A model generated the notes under the pieces. That model was not told where the DNA came from. It did no database searches and saw only the letters and a program-made list of their open reading frames with translations. From Cryobacterium sp. PAMC25264 (lineage in GTDB: Bacteria > Actinomycetota > Actinomycetes > Actinomycetales > Microbacteriaceae), in contig NZ_CP080383.1 in the NCBI RefSeq assembly GCF_019443325.1, forward strand, positions 1,426,001-1,490,000: DNA of 64,000 bases. The letters are read 5' to 3'. Position 1 is the first letter of the stretch, and every line of letters starts with the position of its first letter. Positions 41,103 through 47,193 of the stretch are shown here, piece after piece. Position numbers and translations under genes: made by a program.

Positions 41103-41175
41103 TAGGACCCGTTCTGGTTCCTGGGCACACCGGCTGATCGTTGGCTGCATTCCCGGGGACTTGACATGGGTCCTA

Positions 41176-41213
41176 GTACTGCCCAAAAACGTACTTCCAC
41201 AAACGTACTGCCC
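41176..41213 (+). repeat. Three direct GTACT repeats upstream of sigA
   Basis: GTACTGCCC (41176), GTACTTCCA (41191) and GTACTGCCC (41205) recur at 15- and 14-base intervals, about 100-130 bases before the sigA start. They lie just after a TTGACA at 41161. A regulatory role in sigA control is possible but unproven. The rest of the gap shows nothing else clear. Confidence 0.4.
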
Positions 41214-41309
41214 ACCACCCCGCCTGGTGCGTACCCGGTCCGCGCCGAGCGACCGGGTGAGCGGGGGCAGCGCCGCACGCGCACGAACTACGGCATGAGA
41301 GGTGTTCGC

Positions 41310-42644
41310 ATGGCAACCCCAACGAAGACAGAGCCCGAATTGAAGACCACAGAGACCACGCCGGTCGACGCAGCAGCCGTCGACGCCGCGCCCCGCACGG
41401 CCGCCCAGAAGGCCGCAGCGACCCGCGCGGCCAAGGCCGCCGCAGCCGCCGACGGCACCGCAACGCCCGAGAAGGCCGCCCCGCGCAAGCGTGCCGCCAG
41501 CACGAAGACCAAGGCGGCCGCCGCCGGTAAGAAGAAGGACGGCGACTCCGACGCCGGCGACGACGAGGTCGTGGTTCCCGGGGACGAGCACGACACCGAC
41601 GACGAGGAGAACAGCGACGGTTCCGCCAAGCGCGTGGCCCCCGCCGAGCCGCTCCCCAGCGGTGCGCTCGTGCTCTCGCTCGTGGACGACGAGGATGAGG
41701 TGCCGGTGTACTCCAGCGCCATCACCGGCGCCACGGCCGACCCCGTCAAGGACTACCTCAAGCAGATCGGCAAGGTCGCGCTGCTCAACGCAGCGGAAGA
41801 GGTCGAGCTGGCGATGCGTATCGAGGCCGGTCTCTTCGCCGAGGACAAGCTCGCGCAGATGACGGATGCCGAGAAGAAGAGCGCCCTCGGCCGCGAACTG
41901 CAGTGGGTCGCCAAGGACGGCGCCCGGGCCAAGAGCCACCTGCTCGGCGCCAACCTGCGTCTCGTCGTCTCCCTGGCCAAGCGGTACACGGGTCGAGGGA
42001 TGCAGTTCCTCGACCTGATCCAGGAAGGCAACCTGGGCCTGATCCGTGCGGTCGAGAAGTTCGACTACACCAAGGGCTTCAAGTTCTCCACTTACGCCAC
42101 CTGGTGGATCCGTCAGGCGATCACCCGCGCCATGGCCGACCAGGCCCGCACCATCCGTATCCCCGTGCACATGGTCGAGGTCATCAACAAGCTCGCCCGC
42201 GTACAGCGCCAGATGCTTCAGGACCTGGGCCGCGAGCCCACACCGGAGGAGTTGAGCCGCGAGCTCGACATGACCCCGGAGAAGGTCGTCGAGGTGCAGA
42301 AGTACGGTCGCGAGCCGATCTCGCTGCACACCCCGCTCGGCGAGGACGGCGACAGCGAATTCGGAGACCTCATCGAGGACACTGAAGCCGTCGTGCCGGC
42401 CGACGCCGTTGGCTTCACCATGCTGCAGAAGCAGCTCGAGAGCCTGCTCGACTCGCTGTCCGAGCGTGAGGCCGGCGTGATCCGCATGCGCTTCGGTCTC
42501 GGTGACGGCATGCCCAAGACCCTCGACCAGATCGGCGACACGTTCGGGGTCACCCGGGAACGTATCCGCCAGATCGAATCGAAGACCATGGCCAAGCTGC
42601 GCCACCCGTCCCGGTCGCAGTCCCTGCGCGACTACCTCGAGTAG
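41310..42644 (+). CDS. sigA: Principal RNA polymerase sigma factor
   Basis: A 444-residue sigma-70 factor. The N-terminal 120 residues are an Ala/Lys-rich then acidic tail, typical of actinobacterial SigA/HrdB. Region 1.2 ([21 protein letters not shown]), region 2 ([38 protein letters not shown]), region 3 and region 4 ([20 protein letters not shown]) follow. ATG at 41310 is preceded by GAGAGG; upstream ATGs in frame lie in non-conserved sequence. It recognises standard -35/-10 promoters of housekeeping genes. The murT-like gene follows by 9 bases, and parE and parC are nearby, an arrangement shared with Streptomyces hrdB. Confidence 0.97.
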
Positions 42645-42653
42645 AAGTTGCCT

Positions 42654-43922
42654 GTGCGGTACGCGCCGGCGATCCTCCTCGGGAGGGTCGCGCGGACGCT
42701 CGCGCGCTGGCGGAAGCCCGGTGGGGGTTCCGCCGTCCCCGGCCTGGTCGTGAATACGATCGCGCCGGGGTTCCTGCCGCGCACGCTGAACTCCTTCCCT
42801 CAGGGGCTGGTCATCGTGACCGGCTCCAGCGGCAAGTCCACCACGACGAAGATGCTCGTCGCTGCTCTCCGGGCGCACGGCTCCGACGTCTTCACGAACC
42901 CGTCCACGGCCAACATCAGCCAGGGCCTCACCTCGGCCCTGCTCGAGCAGGTCAGCCTGACGGGCCGTATCGCCGGCGACATCGCGGTGCTGGAGATGGA
43001 CGAGGGCCACGGTGCCCTCATCTCCGGTTCGCTGCAGCCCCGCGTCGTGGTGCTCACCAACGTGATGGTCGACCAGATCGACCGGTTCCACGATTCCGAC
43101 ATGGTCGCGGCGATGCTCGCCAAGATCGCCGCGCGTGCCACCGGCACCGTCGTGATCAACGCCGACGACCGGTACCTCGTCGACATCGGTGACGCCATCC
43201 GCCCACCCGTGTCGGTGGGGCGCTACGGCGTGACCGAGGCCGTCCTCGCCGCCAACCCACGCGGGCTCGGCTACGCGGCCACGGCCGCCACCCGGTTGAA
43301 CGAGGACGGCGGCATGCTGTTGACCGCGGTCGACGGCCGGGACGCCCGCGTGCGGGTCGACGGTACGGTCCTGGCGGTCCGGCTGCCCGCGCGAGGTACG
43401 CACTACGCCGTGGATGCGCTGACGGCGTTGGCCGCGGCCCGCGCTGCTCTCGGGACGGGCTTCGATGCCGCACGTGCCACCGCCGCGATCTCCGGCATCG
43501 CGCCGGTGTTCGGTCGCGGTGAAGTGGTCAGCGTGCGCGGCACGAGCGTCGAATTCATCCTCGTGCAGAACCCGGCCAGCTTCCAGCTCAACGTCGACAG
43601 CCTGGCCCCCGGAACCGAGCAGATCCTCGTCGCCGTCGGCTCCGACGTGCGCGACCCGTCCTACCTGTGGCCGGCCGACACCTCGGGTCTCGGCCACGTG
43701 CTCATCGCGTCGGGGTCCAAGGCCCACGACATCGCGTTGCAGCTCGTCTACGACGGCGTCACGGTCGACCGGGTCGAACCCGATCTCGGCCGGGCACTGG
43801 ACGATTTCCTCGCGTTGCCTGAACCGGCCACGGGGATGAAGACCATCATTTTCTCGGCCGACTCCATGCGCCGCACCCGCGCGCATCTGGGCCTGGCCAC
43901 CAACGAAGCGGACCCCTCATGA
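42654..43922 (+). CDS. murT: MurT-like Mur ligase, cysteine-free
   Basis: A 422-residue Mur-ligase-fold protein. It begins (V)RYAPAILLGRVARTLARWR, has the ATP site VIVTGSSGKSTTTKM with Lys61, the metal/ATP-region VLEMDEGH, VVLTNVMVDQIDRF and NADDRYL, and a DUF1727-type C-terminus with GSKAHDIALQLVYDG, where the Asp of the MurT-GatD triad may be retained. Characterised MurT activates the D-Glu carboxyl of lipid II for amidation by GatD-derived ammonia and carries a Cys4 zinc ribbon in its middle domain. This protein has no cysteine at all and the ribbon is missing. The GTG at 42654 is in the family position, 9 bases after sigA; the stop overlaps the next start by four bases. The symbol denotes the family only. 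Confidence 0.85.
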   Translation: MRYAPAILLGRVARTLARWRKPGGGSAVPGLVVNTIAPGFLPRTLNSFPQGLVIVTGSSGKSTTTKMLVAALRAHGSDVFTNPSTANISQGLTSALLEQVSLTGRIAGDIAVLEMDEGHGALISGSLQPRVVVLTNVMVDQIDRFHDSDMVAAMLAKIAARATGTVVINADDRYLVDIGDAIRPPVSVGRYGVTEAVLAANPRGLGYAATAATRLNEDGGMLLTAVDGRDARVRVDGTVLAVRLPARGTHYAVDALTALAAARAALGTGFDAARATAAISGIAPVFGRGEVVSVRGTSVEFILVQNPASFQLNVDSLAPGTEQILVAVGSDVRDPSYLWPADTSGLGHVLIASGSKAHDIALQLVYDGVTVDRVEPDLGRALDDFLALPEPATGMKTIIFSADSMRRTRAHLGLATNEADPS

Positions 43923-44656
43923 CAGTGGACCAGTCGGCCTCTCTCACTATCGTGACGCTGCTCCCGCGCCTGCTCGACACCAACGGCGATGCCGCGAACG
44001 CGCGGGTGCTCGCGCAGCGGGCTCGCTGGGCCGGGCTGCAGGCGATCGTCGTGCCCGTGCACACCCCGGCCGACGTTCCGCCCGTTGTGGACCTCGTGGT
44101 GATCGGGTCGGGAACGGACACGGACCTCGGCGGCGTCAGGGATGCCCTGCAGCCGCTCTCGGCTGCCCTGCGCGGCTGGTTGGCCGCCGGGGTTCCCGTT
44201 CTGGCCGTCGGCACCGGCTGGGAACTGCTCAGCGACGGAGTGGACCTGCCCGGCGGCGGCGCAGTGGACGGTCTCGCCCTCGTGCGGGGCCGTGCGACGG
44301 CCCGGCCGGCTCGCGCCACCGACGACCTCGTCGTGGCCACAGGCCCGGAGCGACTGATCGGGTTCGAAAATCACGCGCGCGGGTATGCGAACGCCGCTGC
44401 GGCACTGGGGTCGGTGCTCTCGGGCACTGGGAACGGCGACGGCACGGAGGGAACGCGCGAAGGCAGCTTCATCGGTACCCACCTGCACGGGCCGGTCCTG
44501 GCGCGCAACCCCGTGCTGGCAGACAGTCTGCTGGGCGCGGCGTGCGCCGCCAGGGGGATCACTCTGAACCCATCCGCTCATACCGCGACTGTCGATGACA
44601 TGGCAAAAGCCGCACGCAACCAGGTTGCAGTGCGGCTTAGCCTCGCCTCAGAGTAG
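43919..44656 (+). CDS. gatD: GatD-like type 1 amidotransferase without the catalytic cysteine
   Basis: A 245-residue class I glutamine-amidotransferase-fold protein, translationally coupled (ATGA) to the MurT-like gene. The nucleophile elbow, normally (L/V)AICGGYQLLG, reads VLAVGTGWELLS: Gly98 replaces the catalytic Cys. The oxyanion-side strand is GSGTDTDLGG rather than GGGxDxEQ. The partner His is kept as His190 in GTHLHGPVLARNP, and FENHARGY matches the usual segment around residue 150. A Cys at 213 (AACAARG) is not at the active site. The protein probably can not release ammonia from glutamine, so it may act structurally or bind another amine for MurT. See the finding on cell-wall bridging. 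Confidence 0.82.
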   Translation: MTVDQSASLTIVTLLPRLLDTNGDAANARVLAQRARWAGLQAIVVPVHTPADVPPVVDLVVIGSGTDTDLGGVRDALQPLSAALRGWLAAGVPVLAVGTGWELLSDGVDLPGGGAVDGLALVRGRATARPARATDDLVVATGPERLIGFENHARGYANAAAALGSVLSGTGNGDGTEGTREGSFIGTHLHGPVLARNPVLADSLLGAACAARGITLNPSAHTATVDDMAKAARNQVAVRLSLASE

Positions 44657-44681
44657 GACTCGCCAGAGCGAGTCCGACTCT
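44650..44681. terminator. Bidirectional hairpin between gatD and the DUF7455 gene
   Basis: A stem AGAGT-(A)-GGACTCG against CGAGTCC-(G)-ACTCT with a 6-base loop spans the two convergent stops (44656 and 44680). It overlaps the last codons of gatD. Confidence 0.55.
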
Positions 44682-44916
44682 AGGACTTCTGGTCTTCGAA
44701 GAGCCGGCTCGACTCGTCGTGCCAGCTTTCGGCGATCGCGGCGAGCTTCTCCTGGTGCTTGCGACCATGGTGGGCGCAGAAGAGCAACTCGCTGTTATTC
44801 ACGACTACACGGATGTAGGCCTGAGCGCCACAAGCGTCGCAGCGGTCGGCCGCGGTGAGCTGGTGGGGGGCGCCCTGTTGGTCGACGGCACCATTTTCGG
44901 TGGCGATCTGGGACAT
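44680..44916 (-). CDS. Small zinc-finger protein, DUF7455 type
   Basis: A 78-residue protein with one treble-clef-like zinc site: DRCDACGAQAYIRV and LLFCAHHGRKH give Cys-Cys-Cys-His ligands. The sequence matches the small actinobacterial proteins of this family found next to sigA and topoisomerase genes. Binding to nucleic acid or RNA polymerase is possible but not shown. ATG at 44916 follows a strong GGAGGAG. It is divergent from parE, and the 199-base gap contains a TATTCT -10-like element for parE. Confidence 0.85.
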   Translation of the reverse strand: MSQIATENGAVDQQGAPHQLTAADRCDACGAQAYIRVVVNNSELLFCAHHGRKHQEKLAAIAESWHDESSRLFEDQKS

Positions 44917-45115
44917 ATTCTCCTCCTCCAGACTGATACCAGGTGATACCAATTGAATCCTTACTGACCATGTAAACACGGCCGGGCCCGGATTGGGCCA
45001 CAGTTGGGTGACATTTCGCTCACCGCGTAGCATTCACGCGGCGTACCGGGCGTATCCGGCTCCACACGGGTGTCCTGCGGAGCCGCACGGCTCGGGGTCA
45101 CTATTCTTAACCGTT

Positions 45116-47193
45116 GTGAGTTCTGACTATTCCGCCCGCCACCTCTCGGTCCTCGAAGGCCTCGACGCGGTGCGCAAACGCCCCGGCATGTACATCGGTT
45201 CCACCGACTCCCGCGGGCTCATGCACTGCCTCTGGGAGATCATCGACAACTCCGTCGACGAGGCGCTGAGCGGGCATGGGTCGTCGATCGGCATTGTCCT
45301 GCACCCCGACGAGAGCGTCGAGGTCAGCGACACCGCCCGCGGTATCCCGGTGGACATCGAACCGAAGACCGGCTTGTCCGGTGTGGAGGTGGTGTTCACC
45401 AAGCTCCACGCCGGCGGGAAGTTCGGCAGCGGCTCCTACGCCGCGTCGGGCGGTCTGCACGGCGTCGGCGCCTCGGTCGTGAACGCGCTGTCCGAACGTC
45501 TCGACGTTGAGGTCGACCGGGACGGCAAGACCTGGGCGATGTCCTTCCACCGCGGCGAGCCGGGGGTCTTCGCCGACACGGGTGAGAAGAGCCCGGATGC
45601 GCCGTTCACCCGTTCGAGAAGACCAGTGAATTGCGCGTGGTGGGCAAGGTCAAGAAGGGTGTGACGGGCACCCGCATCCGCTACTGGGCCGACCGGCAGA
45701 TCTTCACCAAGGGCGCATCCTTCCAGACCGACGACCTGATGGGCCGGGCCCGCCAGACCGCCTTCCTGATCCCCGGGCTCACGATCAACATCGACGACCG
45801 GCGGGGAGAGACGCCCCTGGCGGAATCCTTCACCTTCGCCGGCGGCATCTCCGAGTTCGTCGACCACCTCGCCGTCGACACCCCGATCACCGACACCTGG
45901 CGGCTCACCGGCGCCGGAAGCTTCACCGAGACCGTGCCTGTGCTCACCGATTCCGGAGCCATGATCCCGACCGAACTGGTCAGGGACTGCCAGGTCGACA
46001 TCGCCCTGCGCTGGGGGACCGGCTACGACACCGTCGTCAAGAGCTTCGTCAACATCATCGCCACGCCCAAGGGCGGGACCCACCAGGCAGGGTTCGATGC
46101 CGGGCTGCTCAAGTTCCTGCGGGCGCAGGTGGAACAGAACGCCCGCCGGCTCAAGGTGGGCAGCGACAAGCTCGAGAAGGACGACATCATGGCCGGCCTT
46201 ACGGCCGTACTCACGGTGCGGCTGCCCGAACCGCAGTTCGAGGGGCAGACCAAGGAGGTCCTCGGGACCCCCGCCGTTCGCGCGATCGTGGCCGCCGTGA
46301 TCCAGAAGACCATGACCGAGCGCTTCACCTCGGCCAAGCGCGACGACAAGACGCAGTCCGCCGTGGTGCTCGACAAGATCGTCGCCGAGATGAAGTCCCG
46401 CATCTCCGCCCGGGCGCACAAGGAGACCCAGCGGCGGAAGAACGCCCTGGAGAGCTCGTCGTTGCCGGCGAAGCTCGTGGACTGCCGCAGCAACGACGTG
46501 GCGCTCAGCGAACTGTTCATCGTCGAGGGCGACTCCGCCCTGGGCACGGCCAAGCTGGCCAGGGACAGCGAACACCAGGCGCTGCTGCCGATCCGGGGCA
46601 AGATCCTCAACGTGCAGAAGGCGTCGGTCTCCGACATGCTCTCCAACCTCGAGTGCGCCTCCATCATCCAGGTCATCGGTGCGGGCTCAGGACGCAGCTT
46701 CGACCTCTCCGCCGCGCGCTACGGCAAGGTCATCATCATGAGCGACGCCGACGTCGACGGCGCGCACATCCGCACCCTGCTGCTCACCCTGTTCTTCCGG
46801 TACATGCGACCCATGATCGAGGCCGGCCGGATCTTCGCCGCGGTGCCTCCACTTCACCGGGTGATCGTGATGAACCCGGGCAGCAAGCCCAACGAAACCA
46901 TCTACACCTACTCGGAGCCTGAACTGCAGGGCGTGCTCGCCGCGCTCAAGAAGAGCGGCAAGCGTTACCAGGACCCGATCCAGCGCTACAAGGGCCTGGG
47001 CGAGATGGACGCCGACCAGCTGGCCACCACGACCATGGAACGCTCGCACCGCACGCTGCGCCGGGTGAAGGTGGCCGACGCCGAGATGGCGGGCAAGGTC
47101 TTCGAACTGCTCATGGGCAACGACGTCGCCCCGCGCAAGGAGTTCATCGTGGACAGCGCAGACAAGCTCAGCCGCGACCGCATCGACGTCTGA
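45116..47193 (+). CDS. parE: DNA topoisomerase IV subunit B, one frame break
   Basis: Repaired, about 692 residues. The GHKL ATPase domain has [19 protein letters not shown] with the catalytic Glu/Asn, DTARGIPVD and the [22 protein letters not shown] segment (P-loop lid); the TOPRIM domain has [12 protein letters not shown] and [10 protein letters not shown]. Neighbouring parC and sigA indicate topoisomerase IV (decatenation) rather than gyrase, as in Streptomyces. The frame slips at the CCC at 45609-45611; one extra C joins [19 protein letters not shown]. The start GTG at 45116 sits about 9 bases behind TATTCT, so a leaderless mRNA is likely, and it lacks a ribosome site. The break is very likely a sequence error because the gene is essential. 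Confidence 0.92.

Follow-up and report, generated by a model that had tools for sequence, protein, structure and literature searches.

The window analyzed here is a stretch of 64,000 nucleotides from contig NZ_CP080383.1 of Cryobacterium sp. PAMC25264. Within it, two overlapping genes whose products resemble MurT and GatD lie between a sigA-like and a parE/gyrB-like gene. The relevant features, in window coordinates, are as follows.

41166..42644, + strand: sigA-like sigma factor gene, named by eye; upstream neighbor of the pair
42648..43922, + strand: MurT-like ligase of 424 aa with zero cysteines
42822..42839, + strand: MurT P-loop, GSSGKS (GTNGKT in most canonical rows)
43653..43655, + strand: MurT Asp336, the counterpart in the alignment of the inter-subunit triad residue D349 in S. 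aureus MurT
43656..43658, + strand: MurT Pro337; DAB genera have Pro here, and D-Orn/D-Lys genera have Ile/Val
43919..44656, + strand: GatD-like protein of 245 aa, a dead glutaminase
44210..44212, + strand: GatD Gly98, in place of the catalytic Cys (S. aureus C94)
44486..44488, + strand: GatD His190 (S. aureus H189)
44680..45033, − strand: open reading frame for a small Cys-containing protein, presumably DUF7455; cassette border
44993..47193, + strand: parE/gyrB-like gene, named by eye, with a frame switch near 45610; cassette border

In the parE/gyrB-like gene, residues 1–161 of a C. arcticum query match one frame and residues 152–688 another; the switch near 45610 is either a true frameshift or an assembly error.

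Profile searches placed both products of the pair in the broader MurT–GatD family. The window MurT matched MurT_C and Mur_ligase_M at 28.8 and 57.4 bits and the window GatD matched GATase_3 at 41.9 bits, all above the Pfam cut-offs, and the latter protein was assigned the GatD fold. Scores against the NCBIfam equivalogs fell below the cut-offs, at 86.1 and 78.7 bits for MurT (cut-off 800) and 55.6 and 92.9 bits for GatD (cut-offs 400 and 450). A first-pass annotation of this DNA had read Gly98 in place of the catalytic Cys with His190 retained, and a MurT devoid of cysteine that carries a GSSGKS P-loop, and our reading of the sequences agrees on each point. Its description of the genes as intact, coupled, and constrained also held: comparison with six Cryobacterium isolates yielded dN/dS values of 0.11–0.20 for MurT and 0.16–0.37 for GatD, with GatD evolving faster than MurT in most comparisons. 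Judged by these ratios, which are well below 1, the window pair is under purifying selection. The same annotation had counted a second, canonical pair in the genome as evidence against its interpretation; none was detected, either with PF08353 or with a GatD profile.

We gathered MurT–GatD pairs from Microbacteriaceae and the wider order, together with 80 named contigs (the best 80 of 275 confirmed), and initially sorted them into three classes by score and sequence, reading the residue at the Cys site with profiles. Canonical pairs constitute class A, in which the Cys, the His, and the triad Asp are present in 47 of 47 rows (17 from Microbacteriaceae, 30 from elsewhere in the order). Class B, which includes the window pair, is without the Cys in 61 of 61 rows, the site being occupied by Gly (40), Ala (14), Ser (4), Thr (2), or Asn (1); the triad Asp is present throughout (61/61) and His is found at the GatD-190 site in 36 of 61. 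The named loci all belong to class B, and each GatD found among them (78/78) is missing the Cys; at two of these 80 loci, and at class B locus L111, no GatD was found. Pairs of class C possess neither Cys nor His (11/11) and have the triad Asp replaced (11/11), with at least four MurT cysteines in 10 of 11. Nine loci fetched later fit class B or class C. At L019–L026 and L241, where a class C pair follows sigA, a GatD His stands at the Cys site (in motifs of the FTHNALEVLG type) and Ile or Leu at the His site, and most of the accompanying MurTs retain CxxC pairs, the triad Asp being lost.

A quick MurT tree of 32 class B rows (the window among them), 27 class A rows, and 11 class C rows recovered class B as a single clade (SH-aLRT 100). 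Classes B and C are each supported as a group by this tree, and class A needs two changes. Within our sample, class B was found only in Microbacteriaceae after oddly named records were regrouped; L189, L200, L155, and L159, which carry the names Planococcus, Acidobacteria, or Auritidibacter, group with Microbacteriaceae by parE+sigA and are probably mislabelled records or bins. Canonical and dead pairs co-occur in three genomes (G054, G066, and G124), and short GatD-like open reading frames of 205–224 aa occur in some small genomes.

These counts, with the Cys absent from all 61 and all 78 class B GatDs and present in all 47 canonical relatives, exclude the strain error that the first-pass annotation had wished to guard against, and class-wide Cys loss together with purifying selection led us to discard a pseudogene as well. 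A second element of that annotation, loss of a MurT zinc ribbon in step with loss of the GatD Cys, did not withstand the comparison, as only 8 of 47 canonical MurTs have at least four cysteines. In the available excerpts of PMC6113224 and PMC6085368, the ribbon or Cys tetrad is likewise described for a subset of MurTs only, in "some Actinobacteria."

Class B shares with the MurT–GatD lipid II isoglutaminyl synthase of S. aureus, S. pneumoniae, and M. tuberculosis, which adds ammonia to this wall precursor, the pairing of a Mur ligase with a class I GATase, the overlapping genes, the GatD fold, the MurT triad Asp, and the ATP loop. It departs from that enzyme in its absent catalytic Cys, variable His, P-loop of GSSGKS or GSNGKS, scores below the equivalog cut-offs, different locus, and separate MurT clade; because of the missing Cys and the equivalog scores, we keep the pair outside the isoglutaminyl synthase family. 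MurT also has in common with the amino-acid-adding ligases MurC–MurF the Mur_ligase_M domain and a reaction in which ATP drives the joining of an amine to a peptide carboxyl. It differs from them in its truncated N-terminal part (as described in the excerpted text of PMC6113224) and in working with GatD.

The position of class B pairs recurs across genomes. sigA lies upstream in 60 of 62 class B loci and in 79 of 80 named loci, the single named miss being a record that starts inside MurT. The two are usually adjacent; a gap of 0.3–0.9 kb separates them in a few loci (L098, L106, and L149), and the small border gene intervenes between sigA and the pair in four Pseudoclavibacter. sigA is upstream of class C pairs in 8 of 11 loci and was found within about 1.5 kb upstream of class A pairs in 0 of 47. 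Where genomes with class A only were opened at sigA, at most 0.3 kb separated it from the next border gene (11/11). Classes B and C alternate within four genus groups (g38, g43, g49, and g68). Loss of the catalytic Cys could mark the pair as a non-functional relic; however, its genes are intact and coupled and occupy the same position in scores of genomes, with dN/dS of 0.11–0.37 in Cryobacterium, and we give this explanation almost no credence.

In several genomes that lack the pair, sigA is followed by an F420_ligase gene (PF01996) together with an ATP-grasp gene (PF14397). At L202 (799–2545), L209, and L214, an F420_ligase-like gene and an opposite-strand ATP-grasp gene follow sigA, and MurT–GatD is absent. 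Among 150 family genomes, the F420-ligase-like gene (at least 60% identity) was present in 21, none of which contained a GatD above 70 bits, and a class B or C pair was present in 101. The gene and the pair are mutually exclusive (Fisher p = 1.7e-12) in a test on the 150 genomes that left out 14 with canonical GatD only and the outliers G053, G123, and G005, counted three short GatDs as pairs, and drew on 101 pairs whose Cys site was read in only part of them. sigA was located in 15 of the 21 genomes, and in 14 of these the F420-ligase-like gene is within 1.5 kb of it: 13 within 100 bases and one at 1.4 kb, with the two split over two contigs in G044. Seven genus groups (g7, g9, g13, g58, g59, g77, and g84) contain the pair in one genome and the F420-ligase-like gene in another. 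These groups are broad, since sigA identity inside the pair/F420 and B/C contrast groups is only 77–92% (450 bases; without g13).

Among named records (best 120 of 4709), the F420-ligase-like gene occurs in Salinibacterium, Rhodoglobus, Microcella, and Microbacterium barkeri, among others. Its product, a putative ligase, belongs to the same amide ligase family as CofE, the F420-0:gamma-glutamyl ligase (PF01996), a Pfam family different from those of MurT–GatD. In G053 and G123 (L027 and L028), the F420-ligase-like gene, MurT, and GatD adjoin one another away from sigA, and in G053 it is a racemase pair that follows sigA (L211).

Two alanine-racemase-like genes are found at the locus in many genomes, beside either kind of ligase. 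A racemase match was obtained in 53 of 193 loci searched and both proteins in 49 (a few genomes having been fetched twice), 8 of which also hold the F420-ligase-like gene; loci with the tandem include L066 (440–2223), L079, L161–L165, L182, and L203–L206. The active site of alanine racemase is composed of the Lys of one subunit and the Tyr of the other. Both motifs of that enzyme (PF01168 plus PF00842) are present across the two locus proteins, each of which keeps one motif only (48/49 loci). The large protein retains a motif of the VKADAYGHG type, which we take to bear the PLP lysine, and is missing the motif of the catalytic Tyr. The small protein has the latter, presumably served by VSYG in 44 loci and by ASYA in 4 (Pseudoclavibacter), and at its Lys site has Arg (26) or else Gly, Ser, Thr, Ala, or no motif (18). 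The exception to this complementary arrangement, with no clear Lys/Tyr split, is L116, situated on a 927303-base contig of a much reduced genome (G015) that retains the dead pair and the two racemase-like genes at the same locus. Because the alanine racemase site joins Lys and Tyr of different subunits, the tandem proteins seem to form an obligate heterodimer that shares a single active site. No racemase pair sits at the window locus, and of the four PF01168 hits in the window genome one is clearly an alanine racemase; as regards the source of D-DAB, this weighs against the bridge-forming role proposed below.

Wall chemistry was taken from taxonomic papers, as far as the available excerpts state it. 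PMC7033078 lists DAB and type B2gamma for Cryobacterium at the genus level, D-Lys and B2beta for Frigoribacterium, Orn and B2beta for Frondihabitans, Lys/Orn for Salinibacterium, DAB for Glaciihabitans, and L-Lys of unknown structure for Lysinibacter. Excerpts of other papers give DAB with a Gly-D-Glu peptide for Rhodoluna (PMC4156110), B2gamma for Agromyces aureus (PMC5217419), and D-Orn, L-Lys, or DAB depending on species for Microbacterium (PMC10757982); Agreia has L-DAB, as in Subtercola and Herbiconiux, but D-Orn in the cross-link (PMC5945732). The wall type is not given in PMC12889094, PMC8929003, or PMC12089995. We assigned wall types per genus, not per strain, with all Microbacterium rows coded Orn/Lys. 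The remaining codings are assumed: DAB for Clavibacter, Rathayibacter, Leifsonia, Plantibacter, Herbiconiux, Pseudoclavibacter, and Amnibacterium, and D-Orn for Curtobacterium.

With these codings, the motif that begins at the triad Asp separates the MurT clades: DAB genera have DPS, and Orn/Lys genera have D(I/V)S. Okibacterium, Mycetocola, and Arenivirga make up a third clade, in which Pro follows the triad Asp. MurT residue 337 matches the diamino acid in 29 of 29 isolates from the eight documented genera and in 50 of 50 from sixteen genera when assumed codings are included. At GatD-190, DAB goes with His or Gly and Orn/Lys with Lys or Gln; this holds for 28 of the 29 documented isolates and for 48 of the 50 obtained when assumed genera are added, the exceptions being L181 and, in the assumed genera, L172. 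The isolate analysis dropped 23 named loci (bins, one mislabelled record, and one without a genus), which reduced the labelled rows from 38 to 29 (documented) and from 60 to 50 (with assumed genera). When metagenome bins are kept, residue 337 agrees in 36 of 38 documented rows; the misses, L150 and L196, are bins whose parE+sigA position conflicts with their genus name.

Among isolates, the DAB versus Orn/Lys state changes once on the MurT tree, compared with two (documented) or five (with assumed genera) changes on the parE+sigA tree; with bins kept, the numbers are 3 on the MurT tree and 5 or 6 on the species tree. Holding the 20 Ile/Val rows together on the parE+sigA tree was rejected (AU p = 0.012), this group having been picked after the MurT tree had been seen. 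Independent contrasts on supported branches run in the expected direction in 2 of 2 documented cases and 3 of 3 with assumed genera, too few for significance, and two of five contrasts show no difference when bins are kept. The telling case is Agreia, which nests with Subtercola and Herbiconiux by parE+sigA and has a MurT of the Orn/Lys clade; by sequence, this MurT sorts with the D-Orn bridge, not with the L-DAB shared with Subtercola. On these alignments, the MurT tree tracks the wall diamino acid (DAB versus D-Orn/D-Lys) rather than the species.

From this evidence, we propose that the pair is probably a neofunctionalised MurT–GatD whose task in B-type peptidoglycan is to build the inter-peptide bridge by placing the bridge amino acid onto D-Glu. 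By extension from the family, MurT would use ATP to activate D-Glu-2 of the precursor at its alpha-carboxyl, and the bridge diamino acid, which is DAB in Cryobacterium, would attack through an amine in place of ammonia. The ex-glutaminase pocket, in which GatD-98, GatD-190, and MurT-Asp336 would come together as they do in the S. aureus complex, may hold or position that diamino acid. In class B, the Cys has been lost and the Asp never varies, and the diamino acid is tracked by residues at the other two points or next to them. Most simply, MurT would activate the D-Glu alpha-carboxyl and the old ammonia site would seat the bridge diamino acid. A bridge-forming role had been suggested in the first-pass annotation, and the class-wide Cys loss, the retained triad Asp, the agreement of tree and sequence with the bridge diamino acid, and the shared locus support it in part; the ribbon loss that accompanied it is not supported, nor is a strict B-type rule.

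One variant of this proposal casts GatD as a scaffold that stabilizes MurT, with MurT alone binding the bridge amino acid. The faster evolution of GatD in most comparisons, its varying His site, and the 205–224 aa GatD-like reading frames would fit such a role; yet the GatD-190 residue agrees with the amino acid in 28 of 29 documented isolates and in 48 of 50 once assumed genera are added, and in the S. aureus complex this site faces MurT-D349 (according to the excerpted text of PMC6113224). We regard the variant as possible, if doubtful.

Alternatively, the pair could attach a different residue to the precursor or act on a different carboxylate, Gly on D-Glu and a secondary wall polymer being examples, with the diamino acid link arising from shared wall-type history. 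B1-type bridges contain Gly. The associations are confounded by phylogeny, with two to three independent contrasts among isolates, and class C pairs, without the triad Asp, occupy the same locus. Shared history accounts poorly for a MurT tree that departs from the parE+sigA tree toward the diamino acid (AU p = 0.012 for a post hoc group), or for Agreia, in which the bridge is separated from the L-DAB common to Subtercola, and we consider this explanation unlikely.

The pair might also still amidate D-Glu, with free ammonia or a glutaminase acting in trans, the Cys having been lost as ammonia is plentiful. Some amidotransferases accept free ammonia, and the MurT ATP site, Asp336, and the pair architecture are all retained. 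Continued amidation would, however, leave unexplained why residue 337 and the MurT tree track the bridge diamino acid, as well as the exclusion of F420-ligase-like genes and the racemase neighbors. In addition, C94G and C94S abolish amidation by S. aureus GatD, and MurT D349N severely reduces it (excerpted text of PMC6113224). We find this possibility decidedly improbable.

The proposed bridge-forming role meets exceptions within the family. A simple rule by which a B-type wall implies a dead pair fails: genomes with the F420-ligase-like gene are without the pair, and Leucobacter, tabulated with cross-link type B in the excerpt of PMC4804768, has a canonical one. The Cys is present in 23 of 23 named Leucobacter GatDs. 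One genome (G096, with a GatD 99.6% identical to that of L. exalbidus) has a single, canonical GatD and neither a class B or C pair nor an F420-ligase-like gene; its genus mate G014 has nothing inserted at sigA, and Lysinibacter (G024, 99.6%) shows the same pattern as G096. Leucobacter and the F420-ligase-like genomes contradict a strict equation of Cys loss with B-type walls, which we rejected, and a dead pair or an F420-ligase-like replacement is not found in all B-type relatives, Leucobacter having neither. Neither kind of ligase nor a canonical GatD was detected in 11 of 150 genomes, two of which (G081 and G144) have a MurT match, and the ATP-grasp protein PF14397 was found in just 2 of 18 cassette-free genomes (G014 and G051). 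Given Leucobacter and the ligase-less genomes, either a B-type wall can also be reached without the pair or some of the published wall types should be revisited. B-type lineages also exist in Bacillota, among them Erysipelothrix and Acetobacterium.

Considering the family as a whole, we lean toward viewing the sigA–parE interval as a modular, exchangeable B-type bridge-building locus. It would consist of a D-Glu-activating ligase, which may be a dead-glutaminase MurT–GatD from either of two classes or an F420-ligase-like protein that is frequently accompanied by an ATP-grasp protein. In many genomes this ligase would be joined by an obligate heterodimeric amino-acid racemase, in which each of two alanine-racemase-like proteins provides half of a single active site; exchange of the cassette would change the bridge amino acid.

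Among the open-access matches listed, we found no paper that names the enzyme attaching the B-type bridge and none that links MurT–GatD to B-type walls. B-type cross-linking, an unusual way of joining wall strands, has been a taxonomic marker of Microbacteriaceae, which live in soil and on plants, for decades. If our proposal is correct, it would name the enzyme that attaches this bridge, show that a dead amidotransferase has been turned into an amino-acid ligase, and point to a residue by which the amino acid may be read; peptidoglycan subtype would become predictable from the genome.
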